DNA from: Candidatus Metalachnospira gallinarum
GTDB taxonomy: Bacteria; Bacillota; Clostridia; Lachnospirales; Anaerotignaceae
Length of the DNA: 64,000 nucleotides
NCBI GenBank assembly: GCA_904378045.1
Contig: CAJFHC010000002.1
Location: forward strand, 1 to 64,000
Reading direction: 5' to 3'
This document shows positions 42,449 through 60,094 of the stretch, piece after piece. How positions within the stretch are numbered: the stretch's first letter is position 1; every line of letters starts with the position of its first letter. Below the pieces are notes generated by a model. It ran no database searches and had not been told where the DNA came from. It was given only the letters and a program-made list of their open reading frames with translations. Both the position numbers and the translations under genes were made by a program.

Positions 42449-42577
42449 AATATCACCTCGGTTTTGTATTTAATACGCTAAAATTATACCGCCGGCTCCG
42501 TACCGCCGTCAATATCAGAATTTACAGCGGCGCGGGCGAATATACATTTAATAAAGATTTTAGACGGGTGATACATA

Positions 42578-43165
42578 ATGATTATAAAAACATTCAGGCT
42601 GAGAGCGAAAAATATAGCTGCGGCCGTCGTTTTGACATTTGTCGCCGCGGCTGCGGTCAAGGCTGCCCCTCCGGCGGCAAAAGCGGTATTTTCAATAGCC
42701 TCCGGAGAAAAAAGGTTATTGCCGATATACAGCGTAGAGACTGAAGAGCCTGAAATAGCCATCAGCTTTGACGCCGCCTGGGGAGCGGACGATACGGACA
42801 CTTTGCTTGAGATTTTGGAGGATAATGATGTAAAAACGACATTTTTTATGTGCGGGTACTGGATAGACAAATATCCGGACGAGGTCAAAAAAATAGCAGA
42901 AGCCGGCCATGACCTCGGAAACCATTCCGCTACCCATCCGCATATGAGCAAGCTTACAAAGGAACAGATCGCGGACGAGATAAAAGAGACCGGAAATAAG
43001 ATAGAGGAGCTGACGGGCGTAAAGAGCGAGCTTTTCCGGGCACCCTTCGGCGAGTATACAAACGATGTCATAAGCACGGCCGAAGAGCTGGGATATTATA
43101 CAATACAGTGGGATGTGGATACATTAGACACTAAACTGAAAACTACATTCTCCAATCAACTGTAA
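42578..43165 (+). pseudogene. pdaB: PdaB-like polysaccharide deacetylase, truncated by prophage
   Basis: This is a sporulation-type peptidoglycan/polysaccharide deacetylase interrupted by integration. A membrane or signal segment (residues 12-38) is followed by the NodB-fold motifs EIAISFDAAWGADDT (the AAWG form typical of PdaB), GHDLGNHSATHPHM with the metal histidines, and LFRAPFGEYT. Homologues continue past IQWDVDTLD with about 60 more residues. Here the frame runs on through KLKTTFSNQL and stops at 43165 inside the recombinase gene. It therefore lacks the last motif (the LFHN-type region). The missing 3' end should lie beyond the far end of the prophage. Confidence 0.82.
43115..43142. 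other. left prophage attachment junction (attL) inside pdaB
   Basis: Similarity to PdaB is lost just after the codons for DTLD (ending 43129), while the recombinase stop codon is at 43143-43145. The recombination core should thus lie at about 43118-43142. The exact core needs the right junction, which is not in the window. Confidence 0.7.
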
Positions 43166-44624
43166 TAACACTTTCCCTCGTAATTACCACATTTTTGACC
43201 ATACTGCGTGCTGCAGCTTTTTTCTCATCAAGGCTCTTTTCTTCCCAATCATAGAGGGATGGGACAGCCAGCATATCCGCTTCAAAACTCCATGTACCGT
43301 TTTCTGCCTCCAATTTTGCCTTCTCGGCGTCTAATTCCTCGATACGTTTATTTATATACTTTAATGACACAGCGCCTGCCTGCTCGAGATTAAGGACAAG
43401 ATTTTCGATCCTGGCATTTATATCCTCGATCTGGCTGTGTATCTCCGATAGTTTCTGATTTATATTTGTTTTGCCTTCTTTTTTTGCCTTTTCAATGGAA
43501 TAGGCTCTTTTAACCATAGCATCATAAACATAGTCCTCAACGTCGCTCACAAGATGTGTATGCGGACTGCAGGCTTTATGGCCCGTCTGATTGCTGCAGT
43601 AGAAATTCGCAACATATCCGTCTTTTCGCTTATACCTCTTTACCACCATCGCATATCCGCATTCACCGCACTTTATAAGACCTGAAAGCCAGGTATACTG
43701 TCCCTTATGGGAGTTCTTGATCTGGCGGTTCTTTGAAAGCTTTTCCTGACAGTATAAAAATGTCTGGCTGTCGATTATGCCTTCGTGCCTGCCCATTGTG
43801 AGGGTATGGTCTTTTACGCTGGTGTATTTTCTTTCGTTTGCCTGTCTTTTTCCGGCCAGAAGGCAGCCGTGGACTCCGTCAAAGCTGTCCATAGGGGAGG
43901 CGATCCTGGCACCGCTCTTATAGTAGTAATTGTATATGGACAGATCCGCCATAACATAGGCAGGATTATGCAGCCGTCTGGATATGTCAGAAGTCTGCAT
44001 TGAAATATCATATTTATTCTTGAGCATCTTCTGAACATCAGAAAGGGTGGTCAGAGGATTTTTATATACCTCAAACATCTCCTGTATAATGGTAGCATCC
44101 TGATTTTTAATATATATGGAGTGCTTTTTGCCGTCCAGAACGACAGAACTGTTATCATATCCAAAGGGTGCAGGGCCTCCTCCAATGGCACCCAGTTTAA
44201 GACGCTCATAATAACTGTCCTTTACACGCTCACTGGTACTTTCTCGCTCCATCTGGGCAAAGGTAGATGTCATATATAACATAGCTCTGCCGGCAGGGGT
44301 GTCCAGCGAAAAGTTTTCCTTTGCTGATATAAAAGAGCAGCCGTATTTATTCAGTATTTCCATAAGCCAGGAAAAATCTGATACACGCCTGCTTATCCTG
44401 TCCAGCTTATATACTATGACTTTATCAAATTTACCGTTTTCTATCCCTTTGAGCATTCGCTGAAAATCTGGGCGCACTGTGTTTTTCCCTGAATATCCCG
44501 GATCGGAAAATATCTCATAGGGTTCGTCGGGGTCCAGATATTTTTTTGCATACTCTATCTGGACATCTATGCTTTCGCTGTCCTTTTTCTCAATGGACTG
44601 ACGGGTGTAGATCGCAGCTGACAT
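43143..44624 (-). CDS. large serine recombinase (site-specific integrase)
   Basis: This is a DNA recombinase that integrates and, with a directionality factor, excises the element. The 493-residue protein has the resolvase catalytic domain with the nucleophile serine in AIYTRQSIEK (residue ~10) and the YSGKNTVRPDFQRML and YKLDRISR motifs. A recombinase domain follows, then a zinc ribbon (CGECGYAMVV...CSNQ...C) and a coiled-coil segment near 400-450. All parts seem intact. The start at 44624 follows AGGAGG. It points toward the attachment junction, its stop lying about 14 bases from it, the usual position for such enzymes. Confidence 0.93.
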   Translation of the reverse strand: MSAAIYTRQSIEKKDSESIDVQIEYAKKYLDPDEPYEIFSDPGYSGKNTVRPDFQRMLKGIENGKFDKVIVYKLDRISRRVSDFSWLMEILNKYGCSFISAKENFSLDTPAGRAMLYMTSTFAQMERESTSERVKDSYYERLKLGAIGGGPAPFGYDNSSVVLDGKKHSIYIKNQDATIIQEMFEVYKNPLTTLSDVQKMLKNKYDISMQTSDISRRLHNPAYVMADLSIYNYYYKSGARIASPMDSFDGVHGCLLAGKRQANERKYTSVKDHTLTMGRHEGIIDSQTFLYCQEKLSKNRQIKNSHKGQYTWLSGLIKCGECGYAMVVKRYKRKDGYVANFYCSNQTGHKACSPHTHLVSDVEDYVYDAMVKRAYSIEKAKKEGKTNINQKLSEIHSQIEDINARIENLVLNLEQAGAVSLKYINKRIEELDAEKAKLEAENGTWSFEADMLAVPSLYDWEEKSLDEKKAAARSMVKNVVITRESVITVDWRM

Positions 44625-44674
44625 AAAAAAAGACCTCCTTTTTCTAAAAAATTGTATGGAAAAATAGGCGGTCT

Positions 44675-44713
44675 TATGATACAATACACTTGCTTAGGGT
44701 GGATTGTATCATA
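44675..44713. promoter_or_regulatory. inverted repeat upstream of the recombinase (putative operator)
   Basis: TATGATACAAT (44675-44685) is repeated as ATTGTATCATA (44703-44713), an 11-bp perfect inverted repeat with a 17-base spacer. It lies about 50-90 bases before the recombinase start. Without a T-run it is more likely a protein-binding site than a terminator. Confidence 0.45.
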
Positions 44714-44728
44714 TACAAACCGCTTCGT

Positions 44729-44760
44729 CCCTTCCTGTTGGCGCAGGAGGGGATTTTTTA
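44729..44760 (+). terminator. rightward terminator with no rightward gene in front
   Basis: CCCTTCCTG (44729-44737) pairs with CAGGAGGGG (44744-44752), one mismatch, followed by ATTTTTT on the plus strand. It would stop transcription coming from pdaB or from an antisense start within the recombinase gene before it enters the lysogeny operon. Confidence 0.5.
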
Positions 44761-44788: not shown

Positions 44789-45529
44789 TTATATGCTTTC
44801 AATTATCTCAAGCCTTTTTTCCAGTTCGTTTATCTCATATCCGGCTATGAGCTCTATCATACTTTCGCCATTATCATTTTTGACGTAGTAATTATCAAAA
44901 CATTCATAGTATCTGCGTCTGTCCGTAAATTTGATATTTATAGGCAGCAGTCCGGCCTTTATAAGCTCCAGATTAAGAATGAGCCTTCCGGTTCTTCCAT
45001 TGCCGTCGATGAAGGGATGTATACCCTCAAATAAAATATGGAACAGTCCTATGGCTTCGATAATGTGCTTCTCCTTTTTCATCTGGTCATAGTCCATTAT
45101 CAGCCTTTCCATTTCAACAGGCACAAGATAGGGCTGGGGCGGATTATGCTCCGCACCGAGTATTTTTACAGGAAGTCTTCTATATACACCTCTGTTTACG
45201 GCGTCATTCATAAGCACCAGTGAATGTATATCCTTGATGGCTTTTTCCGTGAGAGGTTCCTTCCTGTCAGCCAATTCGACCATATATAAAAACGCATCTT
45301 TATGTCCTATGGCTTCCAGATGATCCTTAAGGGGCTTTTCCGCTATGGTGATGCCTTCCTGCAGTATAAGGGCTGTTTCCCTTAAAGTCAGGGTATTGCC
45401 CTCTATGGCATTGGAATCGTATGTGTTTTCTATCATAAATTCTTCCGATAAACGCTTAAGCTCCGCCTGTGACAGGGGACGGGCGTTTTTCAGTTTTTCG
45501 GATAGAATATCGAGTTTTTCAAAATTCAT
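44789..45529 (-). CDS. Fic-domain protein with N-terminal inhibitory helix (class II)
   Basis: This is a predicted AMP-transferase (Fic family) of 246 residues. The active-site loop is complete, HPFIDGNGRTGR, with catalytic His and the anion-binding GNGR. An inhibitory motif of the (S/T)xxxE(G/N) form, SNAIEGN, lies upstream (about residues 34-40), so autoinhibition is expected. The start at 45529 follows CGAGGTGAT. It is the last gene of the leftward lysogeny operon (repressor, ImmA, membrane protein, Fic), expressed in the lysogen. Possible roles are host modification or defence against other phages; neither can be shown here. Confidence 0.9.
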   Translation of the reverse strand: MNFEKLDILSEKLKNARPLSQAELKRLSEEFMIENTYDSNAIEGNTLTLRETALILQEGITIAEKPLKDHLEAIGHKDAFLYMVELADRKEPLTEKAIKDIHSLVLMNDAVNRGVYRRLPVKILGAEHNPPQPYLVPVEMERLIMDYDQMKKEKHIIEAIGLFHILFEGIHPFIDGNGRTGRLILNLELIKAGLLPINIKFTDRRRYYECFDNYYVKNDNGESMIELIAGYEINELEKRLEIIESI

Positions 45530-45548
45530 TGGTATCACCTCGGATAAA

Positions 45549-46418
45549 TTATAGTAATTTTGCATCGCCGGAAACTACTTCATATTTTAAAACTTCTATG
45601 CCTATGGTATTTTTGATTAAATCATAAGCTAATTTTTTAGAAAAATCACTTTTTGTAATACAGTATATATCTGTTCCTTTTACTTCCTCAATTTCCAAAG
45701 GAACAGAATAATCAAAAAATGTATGTCTTAACTGATGATAAATAATATAGCGGTCCCTTTCTGAAAGAGGATTACAGTCAAGAATAAAAACTATATTGCT
45801 GTCCTCAGTAGAAATTCCGCCAGGAAAAGCAATTGAGTGATGTATATAAAGTTCAATATTATTGTCGATGGCCGTACAATCTTTTAAAGTTGAAACAAGT
45901 ATGTTTCTATAGTAGCTCTTATTTTCTATATCAGTAAAATATAAATACAAGTCGCTATTTAATATGCGGTTATCACATTCAATTTCAAAACTTTTGCTGC
46001 TCTTTGCAGTAAGAGAACCTACATATTGTCTTTTATAGTTAGGGTAATTTTTAACATCAATATATTCCCAAAATACATTCAGAGCTGTTCCAGGTCCATC
46101 AGATATTACACTTATATCAAGTGATTCCAGCATACCATTACTAACTTTTTTAGGTTTAGCTGAAATTATAATGTTTGGTATTTTGTTTCTTTCAGCAATA
46201 ATTTTATCCTTGTCTTTCTCATATATATAAGTCCAGCCAAGACCTGCTACTGTAACGGCTGCTCCTATTATGGTGCACACATACGCTATAAAAAAATCAA
46301 CGTGGGAGTCAAGCGGTATAAAAAGACATAGAACTTTATAAATTATTACAGTTGCATATACAATCAAAAGTATCAAAACTGGATTTTTATCAATTATTTC
46401 CCTAAAATATTTTAACAT
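45549..46418 (-). CDS. two-TM prophage membrane protein (homologue of 52406-53143)
   Basis: The 289-residue protein of unknown function has two N-terminal membrane helices (about 12-33 and 43-64), then a cytosolic or external beta-rich domain with VISDGPGTALNV near residue 105. It is AT-rich compared with its neighbours, as phage cargo genes often are. The region FFIAYVCTIIGAAVTVAGLGWTYIYEKDKDK lines up with LLAFYGNILTAAAAVLGVYYTLDYSKFK in the protein at 52406, and both go on to a short Pro-containing strand. It lies in the lysogeny operon between immA and fic with gaps of about 20-30 bases. Superinfection exclusion or another defence role is conceivable. Confidence 0.7.
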   Translation of the reverse strand: MLKYFREIIDKNPVLILLIVYATVIIYKVLCLFIPLDSHVDFFIAYVCTIIGAAVTVAGLGWTYIYEKDKDKIIAERNKIPNIIISAKPKKVSNGMLESLDISVISDGPGTALNVFWEYIDVKNYPNYKRQYVGSLTAKSSKSFEIECDNRILNSDLYLYFTDIENKSYYRNILVSTLKDCTAIDNNIELYIHHSIAFPGGISTEDSNIVFILDCNPLSERDRYIIYHQLRHTFFDYSVPLEIEEVKGTDIYCITKSDFSKKLAYDLIKNTIGIEVLKYEVVSGDAKLL

Positions 46419-46450: not shown

Positions 46451-46939
46451 CTAACAAATATTTCCATTTTCAATGTTTTCTATTTCTTCGACGCTATATC
46501 CTGCATCATTAAATCTAATAGCATAATTATCATATCTGTATATGATGCCATAAGTATTTTTGAATACCTCGATGGCTTCAAGAAGAAACTTATCAGTTAC
46601 ACCAAGATAATCGGCAACATCAGATATATATTCGCAGCCGGACCTGCTTGCTTTAATAAGATCTTCAATAGTAATCAGCCGATTAACAGCCCATTTACGA
46701 GCTGCTTTTTCTTGCTTCATATTATTAAACTTAGAGGTATCAATAATGTTTCCAACGGTGGTGTGGTGATGTCCAAGTTCTTCTGCCAGGATACAGGTTT
46801 TTTCGACCTCATTCAGTTTATTGTTTATATCGATAGTGCCATCACAATATAGCCCCTTAATTCTGTTACTAAACTTATATTCAATAACCTGGACATTTTC
46901 CATGTCAGCATGATTATACAAAACGTATAATTTATCCAT
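46451..46939 (-). CDS. ImmA/IrrE-family metallopeptidase-like protein
   Basis: In ICEBs1-like elements ImmA cleaves the repressor after DNA damage to start induction. Here 162 residues contain LAEELGHHHTTVGN, which takes the place of the HExxH zinc motif (ExxH kept, the first His replaced by Glu as seen in many phage relatives), and KAARKWAVNRLI with the downstream conserved helix. The start at 46939 follows GGAGGTGG; the frame to 46954 overlaps that site. It is directly downstream of the repressor gene (23 bases), the usual partner order. Confidence 0.85.
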   Translation of the reverse strand: MDKLYVLYNHADMENVQVIEYKFSNRIKGLYCDGTIDINNKLNEVEKTCILAEELGHHHTTVGNIIDTSKFNNMKQEKAARKWAVNRLITIEDLIKASRSGCEYISDVADYLGVTDKFLLEAIEVFKNTYGIIYRYDNYAIRFNDAGYSVEEIENIENGNIC

Positions 46940-46962
46940 AATAACCACCTCCAAAGGCAGTT

Positions 46963-47274
46963 TTATTTTCTTTTGTTTTTTACAAACTCAGCAAATCTTT
47001 TTATTTCTTCAAGTTCGTCTGCTGTATAGTCATCACCATCAAAGTGAGCGGCAAGCGTTGAAGAATCATAGTCATCTATTCCAAGTAAAGTATCAGCAGA
47101 TGTATTTAAAACATCAGCTATTTTTTTTATTGTCTGCACGTTAGGTTCACGATTTCCGCTTTCATATAATGAATATGTGGATTTTGCCACACCGATCTGC
47201 TCTGCAACGTCTTTTTGTGACAACCCTTTTTGAAGCCTTATTTTTCTTAAGTTTTCATGAAATAATTCGCCCAT
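46963..47274 (-). CDS. prophage repressor (XRE/cI-like)
   Basis: This lysogeny repressor has 103 residues. The helix-turn-helix covers LSQKDVAEQIGVAKSTYSLYESG (about residues 17-40), followed by VQTIKKIADVLNTSADTLLG and an acidic tail ending EIKRFAEFVKNKRK. It has no LexA-like self-cleavage domain, so inactivation should depend on the neighbouring ImmA. The start at 47274 has AAAGGAGG. It is expressed from a consensus promoter whose spacer contains an operator half-site, suggesting autoregulation. Confidence 0.92.
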   Translation of the reverse strand: MGELFHENLRKIRLQKGLSQKDVAEQIGVAKSTYSLYESGNREPNVQTIKKIADVLNTSADTLLGIDDYDSSTLAAHFDGDDYTADELEEIKRFAEFVKNKRK

Positions 47275-47298
47275 GCTGACTCCTCCTTTATATTTTTG

Positions 47299-47327
47299 AT
47301 TATATATTTGCGTTTTCATTGTGTCAA
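47299..47327 (-). promoter_or_regulatory. repressor promoter (consensus)
   Basis: On the minus strand TTGACA (47327-47322) and TATAAT (47304-47299) match consensus exactly with a 17-base spacer. The spacer contains an operator-like TTTGCGTTTTCAT (47307-47319). Confidence 0.88.
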
Positions 47328-47411
47328 CAAAAAGTTTGCAAAATGAAAATTAATCTATTGATAAATTTGCAATATGCAATTATATTATAATTATAGTTTG
47401 CAATATGCAAA
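47307..47411. promoter_or_regulatory. operator array of the lysis-lysogeny switch
   Basis: Two near-identical palindromes TTGCA-ATA-TGCAA lie at 47367-47379 and 47398-47410. Degenerate copies are TTTGCAAAATGAAA (47335-47348) and TTTGCGTTTTCAT (47307-47319). The sites are spaced by about 30 bases between the divergent repressor and Cro-like genes and overlap both promoters, as expected for repressor/Cro control. Confidence 0.8.
47358..47386 (+). promoter_or_regulatory. rightward early promoter
   Basis: TTGATA (47358-47363) and TATATT (47381-47386) are 17 bases apart. The operator palindrome at 47367-47379 lies between them, so repressor binding would block it. Confidence 0.7.
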
Positions 47412-47433
47412 TTTAAGAAGTGGAGGTGATAAA

Positions 47434-47637
47434 ATGTTCAGAAATCTTGAGGCAGAACAGGCAAGACTTGGATATACAAATACCGATGTAGCCAAAAAAC
47501 TCGGTATATCAAGGGTCTCTTACGAAAATAAAAAGAAAAACGGAAAATTTACAACACTGGAAATTAAAAGTCTTTGTAAATTATTTAAATGCAAATTTGA
47601 CTATTTATTTTACACAGATGGAGAAGGGGAAGAATGA
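47434..47637 (+). CDS. Cro-like XRE DNA-binding protein
   Basis: The 67-residue helix-turn-helix protein begins MFRNLEAEQARLGYTNTDVAKKLGISRVSYENKK. GTGGAGGTG precedes the ATG at 47434; the longer frame from 47374 crosses the operators and was rejected. It is the first gene of the rightward early transcript opposite the repressor, hence probably the Cro-type antirepressor or a small activator. Confidence 0.85.
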   Translation: MFRNLEAEQARLGYTNTDVAKKLGISRVSYENKKKNGKFTTLEIKSLCKLFKCKFDYLFYTDGEGEE

Positions 47638-48812: not shown

Positions 48813-49097
48813 ATGGAAAATGGCAGGCCTGAAGTGGACCTGAGGACAAAAGTAGAAAGGGCGGTATATTTGCCATATCCGGCAGTAAGGCTAAAAGGCA
48901 TAAGAGCGTGGCTGAATATGGCGCCTGGTCAGAAAATAAATATAGATGGCCAAAGATATGTGATAGAGGGCATATATGAGTTTCATATAACTGCCATAAA
49001 CACAAAATACGGATGGAGAGAATCCTTTACATATGCTAAAGTTTGGACAAGCACCGTAAAAAGAAAGCGGGGTGAGGCCTATGGCAGCACCGACTAA
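48813..49097 (+). CDS. small prophage protein, unknown
   Basis: The 94-residue protein has a strong AAGGAGGTG ribosome site. It contains LPYPAVRLKGIRAWLNMAPGQ and a beta-rich centre (INIDGQRYVIEGIYEF). Its 3' end overlaps the start of the replication initiator gene. No family was recognised. Confidence 0.6.
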   Translation: MENGRPEVDLRTKVERAVYLPYPAVRLKGIRAWLNMAPGQKINIDGQRYVIEGIYEFHITAINTKYGWRESFTYAKVWTSTVKRKRGEAYGSTD

Positions 49098-50013
49098 GGC
49101 CGGACTGGACTATTTCCCGTTCTATACAACACTTATAAGGGATAGGAAACTGCGTCCGGCCAAGCTCAAATACGGATACCTGGCCACAATGGTGTATATA
49201 TGTCTTTTATGCATCATTTATGACGACCACGGATACTACTGTGACTGCCGTGATGAGGAAAATCTTATATGGGACATAATGGAGATGCTTCAGGGGAAAT
49301 ATCAGCCCGAAGCGGAGACCGTCAAGGGTGTGATTGAGATGCTGGTGGCGTGTGAACTATTCAGCGGCGACCTCTACAGATCAAAAATATTGACATCCAA
49401 ACGCATACAGGACATTTATTACAGATCCACACTTAAGCGTACTGGACTGACGGTAAACAGAAAGATATGGCTGCTGTCCGAGGAGGAAATGAGAGCCATA
49501 TCCACCCATAGCAGTATTCTGTCCTTTTTGGTTAATGACGGAAATAACGGAGTAAATGACGTCAATAACTCAGTTAATGACGCCAATAATGAACAAATAA
49601 AAGAAAATAAAATAAAAGAAAAGAAAACTAAAGAAAACAGCTTTCCTTCAGACAGCTTCCAGATGGAAGCAGCCAGAAGGCTGAGAGACGGTACATTAAG
49701 GCTTTTCCCGAAGCAGAAGATGCCTGATGATAAGGGGCTCAATAAGTGGGCGGAGATAATAGACAAGATGATAAGGCTGGATAAAAGAAGCGAGAATGAT
49801 ATACTGGACGTTTTGGACTTTGCCCTTGAGGACGATTTCTGGAGACAGAATATACGCTCTGCGGACAAGCTGAGGAAGCAGTTCGATAACCTTTATGTAA
49901 AAATGGTTTCAGGCAGAAGAGGTCAGAAAAATGAGCAGAAAAACGATATAAGAAAAAGCCAGACGGAGGAATATTTCAGACAGCTTGAGCAGGAAATGGA
50001 GGCGGGCAGATGA
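49081..50013 (+). CDS. DnaD-like replication initiator (Lin1244/DUF4373 type)
   Basis: This phage replication protein has 310 residues. The N-terminal ~120 residues (GLDYFPFYTTLIRDRKL, ATMVYICLLCIIYDDHGYYC) resemble the Lin1244/Lin1753 winged-helix domain. A low-complexity linker with NDGNNGVNDVNNSVND and a Lys/Glu run follows, then a C-terminal helical domain that probably binds helicase. It overlaps the DnaB gene by four bases, consistent with origin recognition and helicase loading as a pair. The ATG at 49081 follows GGGGTGAGG. Confidence 0.75.
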   Translation: MAAPTKAGLDYFPFYTTLIRDRKLRPAKLKYGYLATMVYICLLCIIYDDHGYYCDCRDEENLIWDIMEMLQGKYQPEAETVKGVIEMLVACELFSGDLYRSKILTSKRIQDIYYRSTLKRTGLTVNRKIWLLSEEEMRAISTHSSILSFLVNDGNNGVNDVNNSVNDANNEQIKENKIKEKKTKENSFPSDSFQMEAARRLRDGTLRLFPKQKMPDDKGLNKWAEIIDKMIRLDKRSENDILDVLDFALEDDFWRQNIRSADKLRKQFDNLYVKMVSGRRGQKNEQKNDIRKSQTEEYFRQLEQEMEAGR

Positions 50014-51362
50014 AGGATAAAACATCAGAGAGGAAGGAAAGCTCAGGAACACATAGCACATCGTCAACGGAAATTCCCTGCTCCGTAGAAAGTGAAAGGG
50101 CTGTGCTTTCCTGTATGCTTATGGATAGTGATTCGGCTCAGATGGCACTTAGTTCATTGAGGGAAGAAAGCTTTTATACGGGACTTTACAGGGGAATATT
50201 CAAAGTAATGAAGGAGCTGGCCCAGAATGGCAGGAGCATAGATGTGGTGGTGCTTTCCGACAGGCTCTCCCAAAGGGACCCGGATGAAAACTGGGTAAGG
50301 ATACTGGCTGACATAGCTTCAAGCATCGGTACATCGGTAAATATAAAAGAGTACATAAGGGTGCTGCAGGAGAAGGAATACAGACGAGCCACCATAGCCG
50401 CTGCCAATGAGCTCAAGGAGAAGGCTAAAAGCGGAACCATTGATGAAATAGTATCGGTACTTGACAGGCAGAAGGAAAACTATGTATCCACCGGAAAGCT
50501 CCTGCCCATATCCGAGGCGCTGGAAAAGGCACTCATAACGGTAAATGAAAGGATAGCATCCGGCTCGGCCTACTCAGGACTTAGGACAGGTTTTGATAAA
50601 CTTGACAAAATGACCGGAGGACTGCAGGATTCGGACCTTATAGTCATAGCCGCCAGACCGTCCATGGGAAAGACCGCCCTTTGTCTGGATATACTTAAAA
50701 ACGCCGCTCCGGAGCTTAAAAAGAATAATAAATGCGCCATATTTTTCTCCCTGGAGATGAGCAGTGAGCAGATAGCCATGAGGATGTATTCTTCGGCACT
50801 GAACATACGAAACGAAAGGTTCAGGAGCGGTATGTTAAAGAGTGAGGATTTCAGAAAAATAGAAAAATACTCGGATAAGTTTTTAAAGGCAGTGGACTGC
50901 CTGCACTTTAATGACGATATGGTGACAGGCATAGAGGACATATATATGCAGTGCCACGAGCTGAAATACAGCGGAGGAAAGGATATAGGTCTCATCGCCA
51001 TTGATTATCTGCAGCTTATAAATACTCCGGGCGATAACAGAAACAACGAGATAGCCAAGATAACCAGAGGACTTAAAAATCTGGCAAAGACCTTTGGATG
51101 TCCGGTAATAGTTTTATCCCAGCTGAGCAGGGCGGTGGAGAGCCGTAACGATAAGCATCCGACCCTGGCAGACCTGAGAGAATCAGGTTCCATCGAGCAG
51201 GATGCCGATGTGGTCATATTTATTTACAGGGATGAGTATTACAGGGCGGAAAGCGAAAATAAGGGCATCGCCGATATCGAGATAGCCAAACAGCGAAACG
51301 GTGCCACAGGACGCTTTGAACTTAGGTTCATAAAGGAAATGACAAGGTTTGAGAATTTTTGA
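50010..51362 (+). CDS. replicative DNA helicase (DnaB type)
   Basis: This hexameric helicase for prophage replication has 450 residues. The N-terminal DnaB domain starts at EIPCSVESERAVLSCMLMD. The RecA-like core has Walker A ARPSMGKTA, the FFSLEMSSEQIAMRM segment, Walker B IGLIAIDYLQLI, and VIVLSQLSRAVE. The C-terminal DLRESGSIEQDADVVIFIYRDEYY and AKQRNGATG are typical. The ATG overlaps the end of the initiator gene (ATGA). Confidence 0.93.
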   Translation: MKDKTSERKESSGTHSTSSTEIPCSVESERAVLSCMLMDSDSAQMALSSLREESFYTGLYRGIFKVMKELAQNGRSIDVVVLSDRLSQRDPDENWVRILADIASSIGTSVNIKEYIRVLQEKEYRRATIAAANELKEKAKSGTIDEIVSVLDRQKENYVSTGKLLPISEALEKALITVNERIASGSAYSGLRTGFDKLDKMTGGLQDSDLIVIAARPSMGKTALCLDILKNAAPELKKNNKCAIFFSLEMSSEQIAMRMYSSALNIRNERFRSGMLKSEDFRKIEKYSDKFLKAVDCLHFNDDMVTGIEDIYMQCHELKYSGGKDIGLIAIDYLQLINTPGDNRNNEIAKITRGLKNLAKTFGCPVIVLSQLSRAVESRNDKHPTLADLRESGSIEQDADVVIFIYRDEYYRAESENKGIADIEIAKQRNGATGRFELRFIKEMTRFENF

Positions 51363-53143: not shown

Positions 53144-53194
53144 TTAATAACTAAGAACGTGTTCTCCACGTTCTTTTTTATTGGCGGTGATCTA

Positions 53195-53746
53195 ATGAAC
53201 TCAGTGGAGCCCATAAGGGGAAAAAACACCATAAATAAATTTGCGCAAGTCCTGCGTTCCTATTCGGAGAGGGATTATGTGCTGTTTCTTACGGGCATAT
53301 ATTTGGGCCGAAGGATATCCGACATACTTCCCTTAAAGGTGAAGGACGTCAAGGACCGAGAGTATGTTTATTTCCGTGAGTCCAAAAAGAACAAGGAAGC
53401 TTACCTCAAAATAAATAAGAAGCTCAAAAAGGTGTTCAAAGATTACTGTGCCGATATGGACGGAGAAGACTATCTCTTTGCGCCTCTTAAAGGGAGCCGT
53501 GACAGGCATATAACCAGACAGCAGTACTGGAACATATTAAACAGGGCAGCGTCTCAGATTGGATACAGGGATAAGATAGGCTGCCATTCATTGAGAAAGA
53601 CTCTGGGACACGAGCTTTATTCATCGGGAGTTGATATTACTATGATAATGCTGGTGCTTAATCAGGATGATGTGAACTATACGAAAAGATATATCGGAGT
53701 TACAGCCGATGAGATAAATAATGCCCTTGAAAGGCTTTCTTTGTAA
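53195..53746 (+). CDS. minimal tyrosine recombinase (catalytic domain only)
   Basis: This site-specific recombinase has 183 residues and lacks the N-terminal core-binding domain. Catalytic residues seen are Arg in YLGRRISDILPL, Lys in ESKKNKEA, HxxR in CHSLRKTLGHEL and the Tyr in YTKRYIGV. The His usually found before SS/DD is Gln here (LNQDDVNYTKRY). The element already has a serine integrase, so this one probably has another task (multimer resolution, or a late-phase role). The start at 53195 follows GGCGGTGAT. Confidence 0.82.
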   Translation: MNSVEPIRGKNTINKFAQVLRSYSERDYVLFLTGIYLGRRISDILPLKVKDVKDREYVYFRESKKNKEAYLKINKKLKKVFKDYCADMDGEDYLFAPLKGSRDRHITRQQYWNILNRAASQIGYRDKIGCHSLRKTLGHELYSSGVDITMIMLVLNQDDVNYTKRYIGVTADEINNALERLSL

Positions 53747-53853: not shown

Positions 53854-54129
53854 ATGGTAATATTGCATAACTATAAAATGACGGACAGATTCAGGGAGCA
53901 GGTATATGAAAAGAATATTTTCTATCTTCCAAACCCGGTATTAAACTTCGCCATGTCAAACGCTGTGGTAAGGAAAAACAACGGTCTTATAAAGATAGAT
54001 AAGGATGCCTCGGATAAGAGGATAGACCCGGTGGATGCGGCACTGTGTGCCTTTAAGCTGGCGCTTTATTATGACTGCGGACAAAGCAGTTTTGATGAGG
54101 AAAAATGGCTTGAATCCGATGAATGGTAA
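53854..54129 (+). pseudogene. large terminase subunit (TerL), C-terminal remnant
   Basis: The frame reads FREQVYEKNIFYLPNPVLNFAMSNAVVRKNNGLIKIDKDASDKRIDPVDAALCAFKLALYY, the last ~80 residues of phage large terminases (nuclease-domain end). Family members are 500-600 residues long and are preceded by a small terminase subunit; neither is present in the 130 bases before it. A deletion with its joint at about 53830-53880 has removed both, so the DNA-packaging motor is lost. Confidence 0.8.
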
Positions 54130-54162: not shown

Positions 54163-55404
54163 ATGGGCTTAAAAAGCTTTTTCAATATTCTGACTGATAG
54201 CAAGGAAAATACGGGTGACGTTTTGACAGGTACAGAGGGAAGTGACGGAGGAGGCCTTGACTGGCTGCAGCTTCTTATGTCTCGCAATGTGAGGAAGGGA
54301 CGCTCCCTGGAGAGCATCACCTATTATTCCTGTATGCGCATACGCTGTGACTCCATAGCAAAACTGCCCCTAAAGATTATGAGACATCTGGATAAGGGCG
54401 GCAGCGAGCTGGTATCTGACAATGAAGTTTACTCGCTTTTAAGGCTCAGGCCCAACAGGTTTATGGGAATATATGATTTTCTTTTTGCCACGGAGTTTCA
54501 GAAGCTGGAATACGGCAATGCCTTTTGGCTGCCGTCCTATGACAGCAGGGGCAGGCTCAAGGAGATCTATCTTCTGGACAGCCTCAAAATGGAGATAGTC
54601 GTAGACGAATACGGCAGACTGTACGGCAAACCCGATGTTTATTACATTTACAACGGAAACAGCGTATATTCCGAAGATGCGCTTCTCCATTTCAAAAATT
54701 TCTCCCTGGACGGCATAAAGGGCATACCGGTAAAAAGGTATATAGAGACGGTAATAGCTAATGAGCAGATGTCAGGCTCCATACTCTATGGGAAATATGA
54801 AAACGGTATGCAGGACCCCGTCATCGTGGAGTACATAGGAGACCTGGACGAGGCTAAGCAGACCAAAATAAAAAGAAAATTTGAAAATCTGGGCGGGGTG
54901 AGAAATGCCGGAAAGGTAATACCCATACCGTCACAGTTCAGAGTATCCCAGCTCAGCACGAAAATGGTGGATAATCAGTTCTTTGAGCTGCAGGGACTGA
55001 CCGCAAGGCATATATCCAATGCCTTCGGTGTAAAAAGCTTCCAGCTCAATGACCTGGAAAAAAGCTCTTACAGCAGTATTTACGAACAGAACAGACTGTT
55101 TTATTCCGATACGCTCCAGGGAGTTTTGACGGAATACGAACAGGAGATAGACTATAAGCTTTTGACGGGAGAGGACAGGGAGAAAAATCTCTATTCAAAG
55201 TTCAACATTGACGCACTGCTCAGGGCGGATATAGAAGCCAGATATAATGCCTATGCTGCAGGTATAAAAAATTCATTTATAACGCCTGCCGAGGCAAGGG
55301 CCAGGGAGGATATGCCCTTTATTCAGGGCACAGACAGACTGCTGGCATATAACGGAGCTTCCGTATGGCTTGACCAGATAGGCGTTCAGTATGACGGAAA
55401 GTAA
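54163..55404 (+). CDS. phage portal protein (HK97 family)
   Basis: This is the dodecameric channel of the head. The 413-residue protein has the portal pattern LESITYYSCMRIRCDSIAKLPLKIM near residue 45, LRPNRFMGIYDFLFATEFQKLEYGNAFW, and GLTARHISNAFGVKSFQL toward the end. A strong AAAGGAGGTG ribosome site precedes the ATG. It is followed by protease and capsid genes in the standard HK97-like order. Confidence 0.9.
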   Translation: MGLKSFFNILTDSKENTGDVLTGTEGSDGGGLDWLQLLMSRNVRKGRSLESITYYSCMRIRCDSIAKLPLKIMRHLDKGGSELVSDNEVYSLLRLRPNRFMGIYDFLFATEFQKLEYGNAFWLPSYDSRGRLKEIYLLDSLKMEIVVDEYGRLYGKPDVYYIYNGNSVYSEDALLHFKNFSLDGIKGIPVKRYIETVIANEQMSGSILYGKYENGMQDPVIVEYIGDLDEAKQTKIKRKFENLGGVRNAGKVIPIPSQFRVSQLSTKMVDNQFFELQGLTARHISNAFGVKSFQLNDLEKSSYSSIYEQNRLFYSDTLQGVLTEYEQEIDYKLLTGEDREKNLYSKFNIDALLRADIEARYNAYAAGIKNSFITPAEARAREDMPFIQGTDRLLAYNGASVWLDQIGVQYDGK

Positions 55405-55422
55405 AAGGAGGTGAGGACGAAA

Positions 55423-56181
55423 ATGAACAGGAACAGTTTTTTCAGTGTGAGGAATATGACCGATGACAGAGCCGAGATATACATATACGGCGATATAGTT
55501 TCATCTGACTGGGAGAAATGGTCTGAAAACGATGTATGCCCGTTGGATATTAAAAATGCCATCGAAAGTGTGGGAAGCAGAAATGCCGATATACACATAT
55601 ATTCGGCAGGCGGTTCGGTATTTGCCGGAGAAGCCATAAGGAATATGCTCTCAAGGCTTACGGGCCATAAAAGAGTATATATAGACGGCCTTGCGGCAAG
55701 CATAGCCTCAGCCATAGCCATGTGTTATGACGAACTGCATATATCCGATGGCTCCTATATGGTCATACATAATCCAAGCACGCAGATATGGGGTACAGCC
55801 GAGGACCTGAGAAAGGCTGCCGACACTTTGGATATGATAAAGGGCACCATCATAGAGGTATACAGCCAAAAGGCGGCAGACAGCTTTGACACATCGCTCC
55901 TTGACAGTATGCTCAATGAGGAAACGTGGCTTACAGCAAAAGATGTATGTGCTATGTTTAAAAATGCCGTTCTGGATAATTCCAGGGCATATATTTCGGA
56001 CAGCATCGATAATAAAATGCTGAAATATTTTAACAGGCTTCCCGGTGATATCATACTGCCGTCAGCAGCAGATGAAAATGAGGCAGAGGAAATGCGTTTA
56101 CAGATGGCGTGTGAAAGGCTTAAGAATGAACTAAGGATCAAAAAACTTTCTGATAGTTTAAGACCGCAAAAATTAATTTAA
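55423..56181 (+). CDS. ClpP-like head maturation protease
   Basis: This prohead protease of the S14 type has 252 residues. It has the fold motifs IHIYSAGGSVFAGEAI, the catalytic Ser segment GLAASIASAIAM and the catalytic His in YMVIHNPST. It should cleave scaffold or capsid N-termini. The start at 55423 follows AAAGGAGGTGAGG; a GTG four codons earlier lies inside that site. A hairpin terminator separates it from the capsid gene. Confidence 0.9.
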   Translation: MNRNSFFSVRNMTDDRAEIYIYGDIVSSDWEKWSENDVCPLDIKNAIESVGSRNADIHIYSAGGSVFAGEAIRNMLSRLTGHKRVYIDGLAASIASAIAMCYDELHISDGSYMVIHNPSTQIWGTAEDLRKAADTLDMIKGTIIEVYSQKAADSFDTSLLDSMLNEETWLTAKDVCAMFKNAVLDNSRAYISDSIDNKMLKYFNRLPGDIILPSAADENEAEEMRLQMACERLKNELRIKKLSDSLRPQKLI

Positions 56182-56193
56182 CCACAGCTTACA

Positions 56194-56217
56194 ACAGACA
56201 TAATGTCTGTTTTTTTA
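56194..56217 (+). terminator. intrinsic terminator between protease and capsid genes
   Basis: ACAGACA (56194-56200) pairs with TGTCTGT (56204-56210) around TAA, followed by a run of seven T. It lies inside the late operon, so it probably acts as a partial terminator or a 3'-end/processing site. Confidence 0.7.
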
Positions 56218-56235
56218 TTTTAAGGAGGAACGAAT

Positions 56236-57429
56236 ATGACAAAATCAGTTGAGATGCTCAAAAATCTGGATTCCATGATAGGCGAATGCCAGAACCTCAT
56301 TGATGAAGGCAGACTTGAGGAAGCCAAAAACAAAAAGAAGGAAATAGATGATTATAAAGCTCTCATATCCATACAGGAGGAGCTGGAAAACGCCGAAAGG
56401 ACAGGTTTAAGGGATAAAATAGACAAGCTCCCTCCTGCCGAGGCAAAGAGAGCGTCAAGCGGAGTAAGAGCCATTATTAAAAGATGCCTTGGCCACGATC
56501 TTACCGAGGCTGAAAATGCTCTTTTAATACCTACCACATCATCACCCAACGGAGAAAACGGTGAAGGATACATCCTTCCTGTGGACGTAAGAACTACCAT
56601 AACAAAACTTGTGAGGGATTATGGCTCCGTAAGGGATATTTTCGGATATATGAAAGCCTCAGCCCTTAAGGGAAGTTTTGCCGTAGAAGCCTATGAGACC
56701 ATTTCAGAGCTGGTGGATCTGGATGAGAGCGCCGACGGAAAGGATATCGATGACATCAAGTTCTCCAATGTGTCCTATGCCCTCAAGATTAAGGCCGGCT
56801 TCATAAGTATTTCAAACATACTCTTAAACTTCACCGATGAGGACCTTCTTTCATATATCTCATCAATATTTGCCAGAAAAAAGGCAGTTACGGAAAATAA
56901 GATGCTCCTTGAAGCCGCAAAGAAAAATAAGACAGGAGTGGCGGTGGAGGGCTATTCGGGAGTTAAAAGCGTCGTAAATAAGACCCTCGACCCGGCGGCA
57001 GCATTAAACTGCGTTTACCTCACCAATCAGAGCGGATTTGACATACTGGATAACGAAAAGGACCAGATGGGCAGACCCATACTCCAGCCTGATCCCACAC
57101 AGCCCACAAGGATGCTTTTAAAGGGACATCCCATAAGATACGTCTCCGACGATATACTTCCCAACGTAAGCGGAGAGTCGGTGAACGGTTCGCCCATATT
57201 CATTGGGGACTTAAAAAGCGGAGTTTATTTTGTGGATGCGGAAAGCGACTCCCTCAATTTTGATAAGTCCGTAGGCTTTATGAAAAACAGGACTGTGGGC
57301 AGGATAATAACCCTCATTGATGCCGTACAGACGGATAAAAGCGACAAATGCTATGTTTATGGACTTCTTTCAGCTCCGGCAGCGGCGGCAATGGCGACAC
57401 TTGATGAAAACGGTGAAGCCGGCGTCTGA
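56236..57429 (+). CDS. major capsid protein (HK97 family)
   Basis: The 397-residue shell protein has a helical, charged N-terminal ~75 residues (scaffold-like delta region, removed by the protease in relatives). The HK97 fold begins near ALLIPTTSSPNGENGEGYILP and includes AALNCVYLTNQSGFDIL and FIGDLKSGVYFVDAES in the P/A domains. TAAGGAGG precedes the ATG. Confidence 0.93.
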   Translation: MTKSVEMLKNLDSMIGECQNLIDEGRLEEAKNKKKEIDDYKALISIQEELENAERTGLRDKIDKLPPAEAKRASSGVRAIIKRCLGHDLTEAENALLIPTTSSPNGENGEGYILPVDVRTTITKLVRDYGSVRDIFGYMKASALKGSFAVEAYETISELVDLDESADGKDIDDIKFSNVSYALKIKAGFISISNILLNFTDEDLLSYISSIFARKKAVTENKMLLEAAKKNKTGVAVEGYSGVKSVVNKTLDPAAALNCVYLTNQSGFDILDNEKDQMGRPILQPDPTQPTRMLLKGHPIRYVSDDILPNVSGESVNGSPIFIGDLKSGVYFVDAESDSLNFDKSVGFMKNRTVGRIITLIDAVQTDKSDKCYVYGLLSAPAAAAMATLDENGEAGV

Positions 57430-59008: not shown

Positions 59009-60094
59009 ATGAGCATTACCATGCCCGCCATAGAAATAAAATTCAGACAGCTGGCCTTGACTTTCATTCAGAGAAGTGAAAGGGGGACGGCTGTTTTAAT
59101 AATAAAGGATGATACCGAAGGAGCAGGTTTTGTGAAATACACCGATGCCGCCGCTGCTTCGGCTGATAAGGCATATTATACCGCCGCCAATATGCTCTAC
59201 ATAACCGATGCCCTAAGTTTTAAGGCAAAGGAGGTCTATGTTGTAAAAATTCCGGCTGAGGGTGCCATAAACGACGCTTTGACTGCCATCAAAAAAAGGC
59301 TCACCACCGGCTGGATAACCATTGCGGACGGCACAAAAGAGGAGTTTGAACAGCTTAAAAGCTGGATAGTATCCCAGGAGGCCTAGAACCTTACCTATAA
59401 GGCCGTAGTATTTGGACTTACGGCTCCTGACTGTATGCATATAGTCAATCTGGTAAATGAAAAGGTGACATTTAACGACGACAGAGGAGAGGTCAGAGGA
59501 GAAAAATATACGCCGTCCCTGGCAGGAATGCTTGCAGGATGCAATGTTGAGCAGGGTGCGACCGGATATTTGTGTTCAAATCTTTCATACGTCCAGGAAG
59601 TTGAGGACAGGGACGCCGCCCTTGATAAGGGAGAGTTCATTCTCTATAACGATGATGAGAGTGTAAAGGCAGCCAGGGGCATAAACTCACTGACTACTCT
59701 GGACGGCTCCACAAAAACCGAGGATATGAGATTCATAGATATAGTCGAGGCCATGGACCTTATAAAGGACGATATATCTTCCACCTGGGGTGATGATTAC
59801 TGCGGAAAGTACAAAAACCTGTATGATAACCAGGTTCTTTTTATTTCGGCGGTAAACGGATATTTCAGGGATTTGGCTGATGAGAATGTGCTGGATAAAA
59901 ATTATGATAATCTCTGCAGTGTAGATGTGGAGGAACAGCGCTCGGCATGGCTTGCCTCGGGAAAGAGCGAGGCGGCTTCCTGGGATGAGGCTAAGGTAAG
60001 GAATATGACCTTTAAGAGAAAGGTCTTTCTTTCAAACAGTATAAAAATACTTGGGGCCATGGAAGATCTGGAATTTGTATCAAATCTGGCCTGA
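59009..60094 (+). pseudogene. tail sheath protein with in-frame TAG
   Basis: This is a contractile sheath protein, the marker of a myophage tail. The frame spans 361 codons, with TAG at codon 126 (59384-59386). Before it: MSITMPAIEIKFRQLALTFIQRSERGTAVLII and WIVSQEA. After it, without change of frame: NLTYKAVVFGLTAPDCMHIVNL, YLCSNLSYVQEVEDRDAALDKGE and the C-terminal NSIKILGAMEDLEFVSNLA. Both parts match XkdK-like sheaths. Position and codon are compatible with CAG to TAG. Confidence 0.85.

Follow-up and report, generated by a model that had tools for sequence, protein, structure and literature searches.

Several sporulation genes are known to be interrupted by removable elements, namely sigK, spsM, spoVFB, spoVR, gerE, and yabG. 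In Bacillus subtilis and Clostridioides difficile, the mother-cell gene sigK is split by skin, a defective prophage-like element that includes its own serine recombinase gene and whose excision rebuilds sigK. The spore envelope gene spsM of B. subtilis and B. amyloliquefaciens hosts SPbeta, an active phage with a large serine recombinase (LSR), and worn-down SPbeta-type elements are known from B. amyloliquefaciens (PMC4191935). In gerE of B. cereus, the gin element places non-phage DNA between the gene halves and has three recombinases, whereas yin, a prophage-like element with an LSR in yabG of Clostridium botulinum, was reported as unique to one strain. A related strategy is found in Anabaena, where excision elements in nif genes let the gene be rebuilt only in a terminally differentiated cell, the heterocyst; as organisms, genes, and cell type are all different, this is an analogy only.

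The gene considered here is named spoVIE or pdaB in B. subtilis, where it belongs to the mother-cell sigmaE regulon and where a pdaB mutant sporulates at 5% (PMC4703394). A sequence-only reading of the present DNA had proposed a skin-like layout, with a prophage lodged in a pdaB-type gene, and had held that pdaB is not a described site of this kind. In the literature searched, outside which lie most subscription papers and all preprints, no report joins pdaB/spoVIE with a prophage, and the skin-like reading is supported by the sequence comparisons presented below.

The window, i.e., the whole stretch of DNA analysed, comprises the first 64,000 bases of a contig totalling 74,210 bases (positions on the whole contig are prefixed C2). 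Its frame 42578-43165 encodes a polysaccharide deacetylase (Pfam Polysacc_deac_1, 127 bits) whose best NCBIfam model is PdaB TIGR02764, matched over model positions 1-134 of 191. Similarity to PdaB ends at about 43120, near the position of about 43129 where the sequence-only reading had placed the break, and past residue ~181 the frame continues through unrelated codons of an inserted element to a stop at 43165. The 5' part of the gene thus delimited occupies 42578-43119 on the plus strand (residues 1-180 plus two bases of codon 181), and its 3' part is found beyond the window, at C2:70360-70605 (L004:10360-10605). A PdaB profile search of the whole genome returned these two pieces (profile positions 1-134 at 42734-43135 and 125-191 at C2:70348-70548) and no other pdaB, and a second copy of the gene is ruled out. 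An intact second pdaB with no 3' half beyond the element had been named as the arrangement that would speak against a skin-like layout; what the genome holds is a single gene whose 3' half stands beyond the element, in frame and next to the matching att core that had been looked for.

The two att sites are attL (43090-43148, core GA at 43118-43119) and attR (outside the window, core GA at C2:70360-70361), with 27,242 bp between the two cores. Both junctions consist of the GA core flanked by palindromic arms. This insertion point, termed site 1, is the GA within the codon for Asp181 (motif WDVD-SLDWK). Joining at GA yields WDVDSLDWK in frame and a protein of 261 aa; the stretch SLDWK is invariant across eight aligned uninterrupted relatives, and the related genomes lacking the element carry an unbroken pdaB with the very sequence that excision would recreate. 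The joined protein aligns end to end with PdaB TIGR02764 (1-191 of 191, 226.7 bits) and scores better there than against the sister families PdaA (142.7 bits) and YlxY (166.3 bits). As its score lies under the curated cut-off of 237.4 bits, the name PdaB-type is used; three uninterrupted relatives likewise fall just under this cut-off (224.7-233.2 bits), and none of the control genomes passes it in the profile search, B. subtilis included. A chimeric assembly is ruled out by identical junctions in many genomes, including the single-contig G022 and G029.

The DNA between the cores (43120-64000 and on to C2:70359) is a decayed prophage. It includes a lysogeny region with a metalloprotease and repressor-like regulators (46451-47637), replication genes for a DnaD-like initiator and a DnaB-like helicase (49072-51362, plus strand), genes for the portal, head maturation protease, and major head protein (54163-57429, plus strand), tail genes, and an amidase. 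The phage is unlikely to be productive, judging from a large terminase reduced to its C-terminal 91 aa (53854-54129, plus strand) and a tail sheath gene (59009-60094, plus strand) split by a stop codon at 59384-59386. In contrast to these broken phage genes, the LSR is whole: it is encoded on the minus strand at 43143-44624 (start ATG at 44624), counts 493 aa with Resolvase, Recombinase, and Zn-ribbon domains, and has its end 24 bases inward of the left junction. Both the decay of the phage and the intact recombinase beside the junction had been recognized by the sequence-only reading. Just ahead of the terminase remnant, a 195-aa tyrosine-recombinase-like protein (53159-53746) may be what is left of another mobile element, one that disrupted the terminase gene. 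A Fic-domain protein (SoFic/PDC-S04-like, 44789-45565), an adenine methyltransferase (L004 7328-8098), and an SMC-like ATPase (L004 8413-10212) are possible defence cargo of the prophage. Neither known RNA families nor tRNAs were found in the window part of the element. Free phage was sought in IMG/VR: the attP pattern gave 0 matches, and the LSR as query gave one close viral contig of 34 kb, 70% identical and ending at the LSR.

A candidate sigmaE-type promoter (44651-44679, minus strand; TCATAAG-14-CATACAAT) has its end 26 nt ahead of the LSR start; the related elements of G003, G004, and G012 conserve it in part. It is a consensus match only, and the sigmaE-like motif used in scanning this site and the candidate sites ahead of LSRs in relatives was loosened after the data had been looked at; as a link to sporulation control, the match is suggestive, not proof. 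A hairpin (44668-44723, minus strand) overlaps the candidate -35 box, and the folded stretch 44624-44760 has a z of -5.24. The strong hairpin region (44668-44760) is also visible in G003, G004, and G012, has no Rfam match, and might act as a terminator or in regulation. Ahead of pdaB itself, a weak candidate sigmaE-type promoter was read by eye (42518-42546, plus strand; GAATTTA-14-AATATACA), and the promoter scan favoured another site (p 0.35); several relatives display clearer sigmaE-like sites 24-26 nt upstream of the pdaB start. In G028, G029, and G030, pdaB part 1 is followed on its own strand by the LSR gene, which has a ribosome site; the pdaB promoter itself may therefore drive the LSR. 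In G056 (L048) and G057 (L081), the gap separating the pdaB 5' part from the LSR holds a conserved ORF of ~43 aa that immediately precedes the LSR in the same orientation and is a candidate directionality factor.

The genome of the window encodes Spo0A, SigK, and a SigE-like factor, and its SigK is uninterrupted. Our main reading, to which we assign a probability of about 0.83, is that a decayed prophage sits in pdaB and that LSR-mediated excision in the sporulating mother cell rebuilds the gene. A temperate phage would have integrated through its LSR at the GA of the Asp181 codon and later decayed, the LSR and a putative directionality factor remaining able to excise the element precisely. 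During sporulation, excision under sigmaE would rejoin pdaB in the mother cell and provide the deacetylase for a stable spore, while the spore chromosome would stay unexcised and pass on the split gene. Excision itself, its timing, its link to sigmaE, and its restriction to the mother cell are what we infer from the layout of the locus and its recurrence in relatives.

This recurrence was followed with the joined protein as query in 58 genomes of the family (Anaerotignaceae, Lachnospirales), the junctions being read base by base. The gene is split in 29 of them and uninterrupted in 26, three being without a call. At exactly the same GA, 26 genomes are split, that of the window included, and seven are split at a second position, site 2 (SFDAA|WGADD); four of these are split at both sites, with the gene in three pieces. 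Split and whole genes are found inside one genus, and the three congeners of the window genome lack the element and have a whole pdaB. An LSR nearly always adjoins those junctions of this set that were readable. The LSRs at site 1 belong to several lineages (33-47% identity to that of the window), and those of site 2 form a separate clade (22-23% identity). Beyond the family, 196 genomes of the order were surveyed, and at least five more families (f12, f14, f16, f22, f24) proved to have site-1 splits, with an LSR adjoining the junction in G191, G118, and G088. GA is present at both ends in all 22 usable junction pairs. The element arms are palindromic, with a mean of 17.1 matches out of 28 versus 9.5 with shuffled arms; right versus permuted arm pairing gives p below 1e-4, in part because the lineages differ. 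The site-2 arms of different species covary, reading CGTACTT/AAGTACG in G029, CCGTACTA/TAGTACGG in G028, and CCGTACCA/TGGTACGG in G030.

Two calls were discarded. The apparent site-1 split of G043 was rejected as two contigs that merely overlap, the gene being uninterrupted at this site, and G016, which had also looked split, was placed among the genomes without a call, as its contig begins 24 nt before the site. In the congeners G043 (L077, reverse strand) and G044 (L008 1705-1707), codon 68 of pdaB is TAG in place of the conserved TGG (Trp68). This TAG lies exactly at insertion site 2 of two otherwise uninterrupted genes, and the frame is otherwise open and evolves under purifying selection, with pN/pS 0.138 downstream of the TAG. 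Reading as pyrrolysine was rejected, no pyrrolysyl-tRNA synthetase (PylS) being found above cut-off. In G070 (L208 744-1502 and 3978-4229), the interval between the two pieces of a split pdaB (C1:15863-16093 and C1:26492-26725) contains a whole pdaB, as though the element had brought along an intact copy.

What lies between the gene parts varies from prophage, through a 2.5-kb remnant, to segments of host genes. The smallest elements, in G045-G047, measure 2.5-2.8 kb and hold, besides the LSR, an Amidase_3 protein and a small ORF in divergent orientation. This Amidase_3 cell-wall hydrolase (L045 2896-3606, L046 2832-3638, L047 3503-4366) shows dN/dS of 0.10-0.29 and might serve mother-cell lysis. 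In G049, G050, and G051, the segments (15,516, 15,529, and 15,497 bp) hold host-type genes in place of phage genes, as judged by eye from translations: MarR, an RND efflux pump, a lipoprotein, a peptidase, chromate transporters, and cobalt uptake, about 75-98% identical between species.

These segments bear directly on the first alternative, an ordinary prophage that uses pdaB as its attachment site, the gene being dead meanwhile and never rebuilt in development. Conserved genes do serve as attB for many serine-integrase phages, the insertion in the window could be recent given its element-free congeners, and G205, whose pdaB 5' part carries stops and lies on the opposite strand, is a split gene that has died. 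A dead host gene fits poorly, however, with a decayed phage whose LSR, att pair, and flanking gene parts are all intact, with elements worn down to 2.5-2.8 kb that retain the LSR, and with the old segments of relatives, in which both gene parts stay under strong purifying selection. Indeed, the pdaB parts of G049-G051 show dN/dS of 0.005-0.03 at dS of 0.9-2.0, and the range is 0.005-0.04 when the split parts of G049-G051 are taken together with part 2 of G028-G030 (Nei-Gojobori values near saturation and hence approximate). The LSR of G049-G051 has dN/dS of about 0.14 at a dS similar to that of the pdaB parts, and from these values the segment has probably been present since their common ancestor. 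Selection was measured in these relatives, the three congeners of the window genome being free of the element. We regard this first alternative as unlikely.

A second alternative retains excision and detaches it from sporulation: phage induction or stochastic loss (active lysogeny) would yield a subpopulation with a whole gene, which makes the spores. It has a precedent in yin of C. botulinum, which was excised from yabG at all time points (PMC10747680). The phage of the window, however, is hardly able to produce particles, the segments of G048-G051 hold long-conserved host genes, and in G028, G029, and G030 the site-2 segment encloses yerC-pcrA-ligA with the only ligA of the genome, so that its loss during growth should kill the cells. 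One of these genomes, G029, is the complete chromosome NZ_CP097810.1 of Clostridium sp. MD294 strain ASF356, which is in culture. In G031, where pdaB is whole, yerC-pcrA-ligA lie 4-10 kb downstream of it, and a rearrangement therefore brought them inside the segment in G028-G030. That the sole DNA ligase gene is enclosed speaks against excision during growth, and we hold this second alternative to be quite improbable. Assembly of the two parts as separate polypeptides with no DNA rearrangement, which both open and conserved frames might suggest, is hardly credible, given that the 3' part of the gene interrupted here lacks a start codon with a ribosome site where it meets the element, that the junctions are att sites, and that the insertion point leaves the metal-binding motifs in one part and the DxxDW and LFHN motifs of CE4 deacetylases in the other, so that each part by itself should be inactive.

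The intervening DNA in relatives appears to be best explained by excision limited to the mother cell. On a broader scale, we find it reasonably probable that pdaB/spoVIE is developmentally reassembled across much of Lachnospirales, with distant LSRs having repeatedly entered at one dinucleotide and at a second site, and with segments made in part of ordinary chromosome, including the only DNA ligase gene, so that the mother cell would discard host genes, even an essential one. On the main reading, pdaB would stand as a seventh sporulation gene beside the six reported as interrupted by removable elements. The named relatives of the hosts are mostly gut bacteria of animals, for which spores are important in transmission, and automatic annotation may label a split pdaB as a pseudogene, with species wrongly counted as non-sporulating. 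Among the relatives, prophage, remnant, and host-gene segment form a natural series in which the upkeep of such elements is directly testable, and the sole DNA ligase gene inside the segment of strain ASF356 makes a sharp test of excision timing possible.

The sequence features expected from skin and SPbeta are all found at the pdaB element, namely an in-frame split, no second copy, an intact recombinase, a shared core, and a prophage origin, and on these grounds it is predicted to work as they do. As in skin, a defective prophage-like element with its recombinase gene inside splits a sporulation gene, here one predicted to act in the mother cell; the target is pdaB/spoVIE instead of sigK, and excision is here predicted from sequence. 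As in SPbeta, a prophage with an LSR has worn-down versions in relatives, whereas the pdaB phage is itself decayed, occupies another gene in another bacterial order, and belongs to a set in which unrelated LSR lineages share one site and the gene has a further insertion site. The host-type segments of G048-G051 and G056 resemble gin in their non-phage DNA. Against the three recombinases of gin, the pdaB segments read have a single LSR at the junction, and they hold host-type genes, with the only ligA in some genomes. Like yin, the pdaB element is prophage-like and brings an LSR into a clostridial sporulation gene, yet splits of pdaB affect about half of one family and recur in several others. 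To the extent of our search, neither the use of two insertion sites within a single gene nor the enclosure of an essential host gene has a precedent among such systems.
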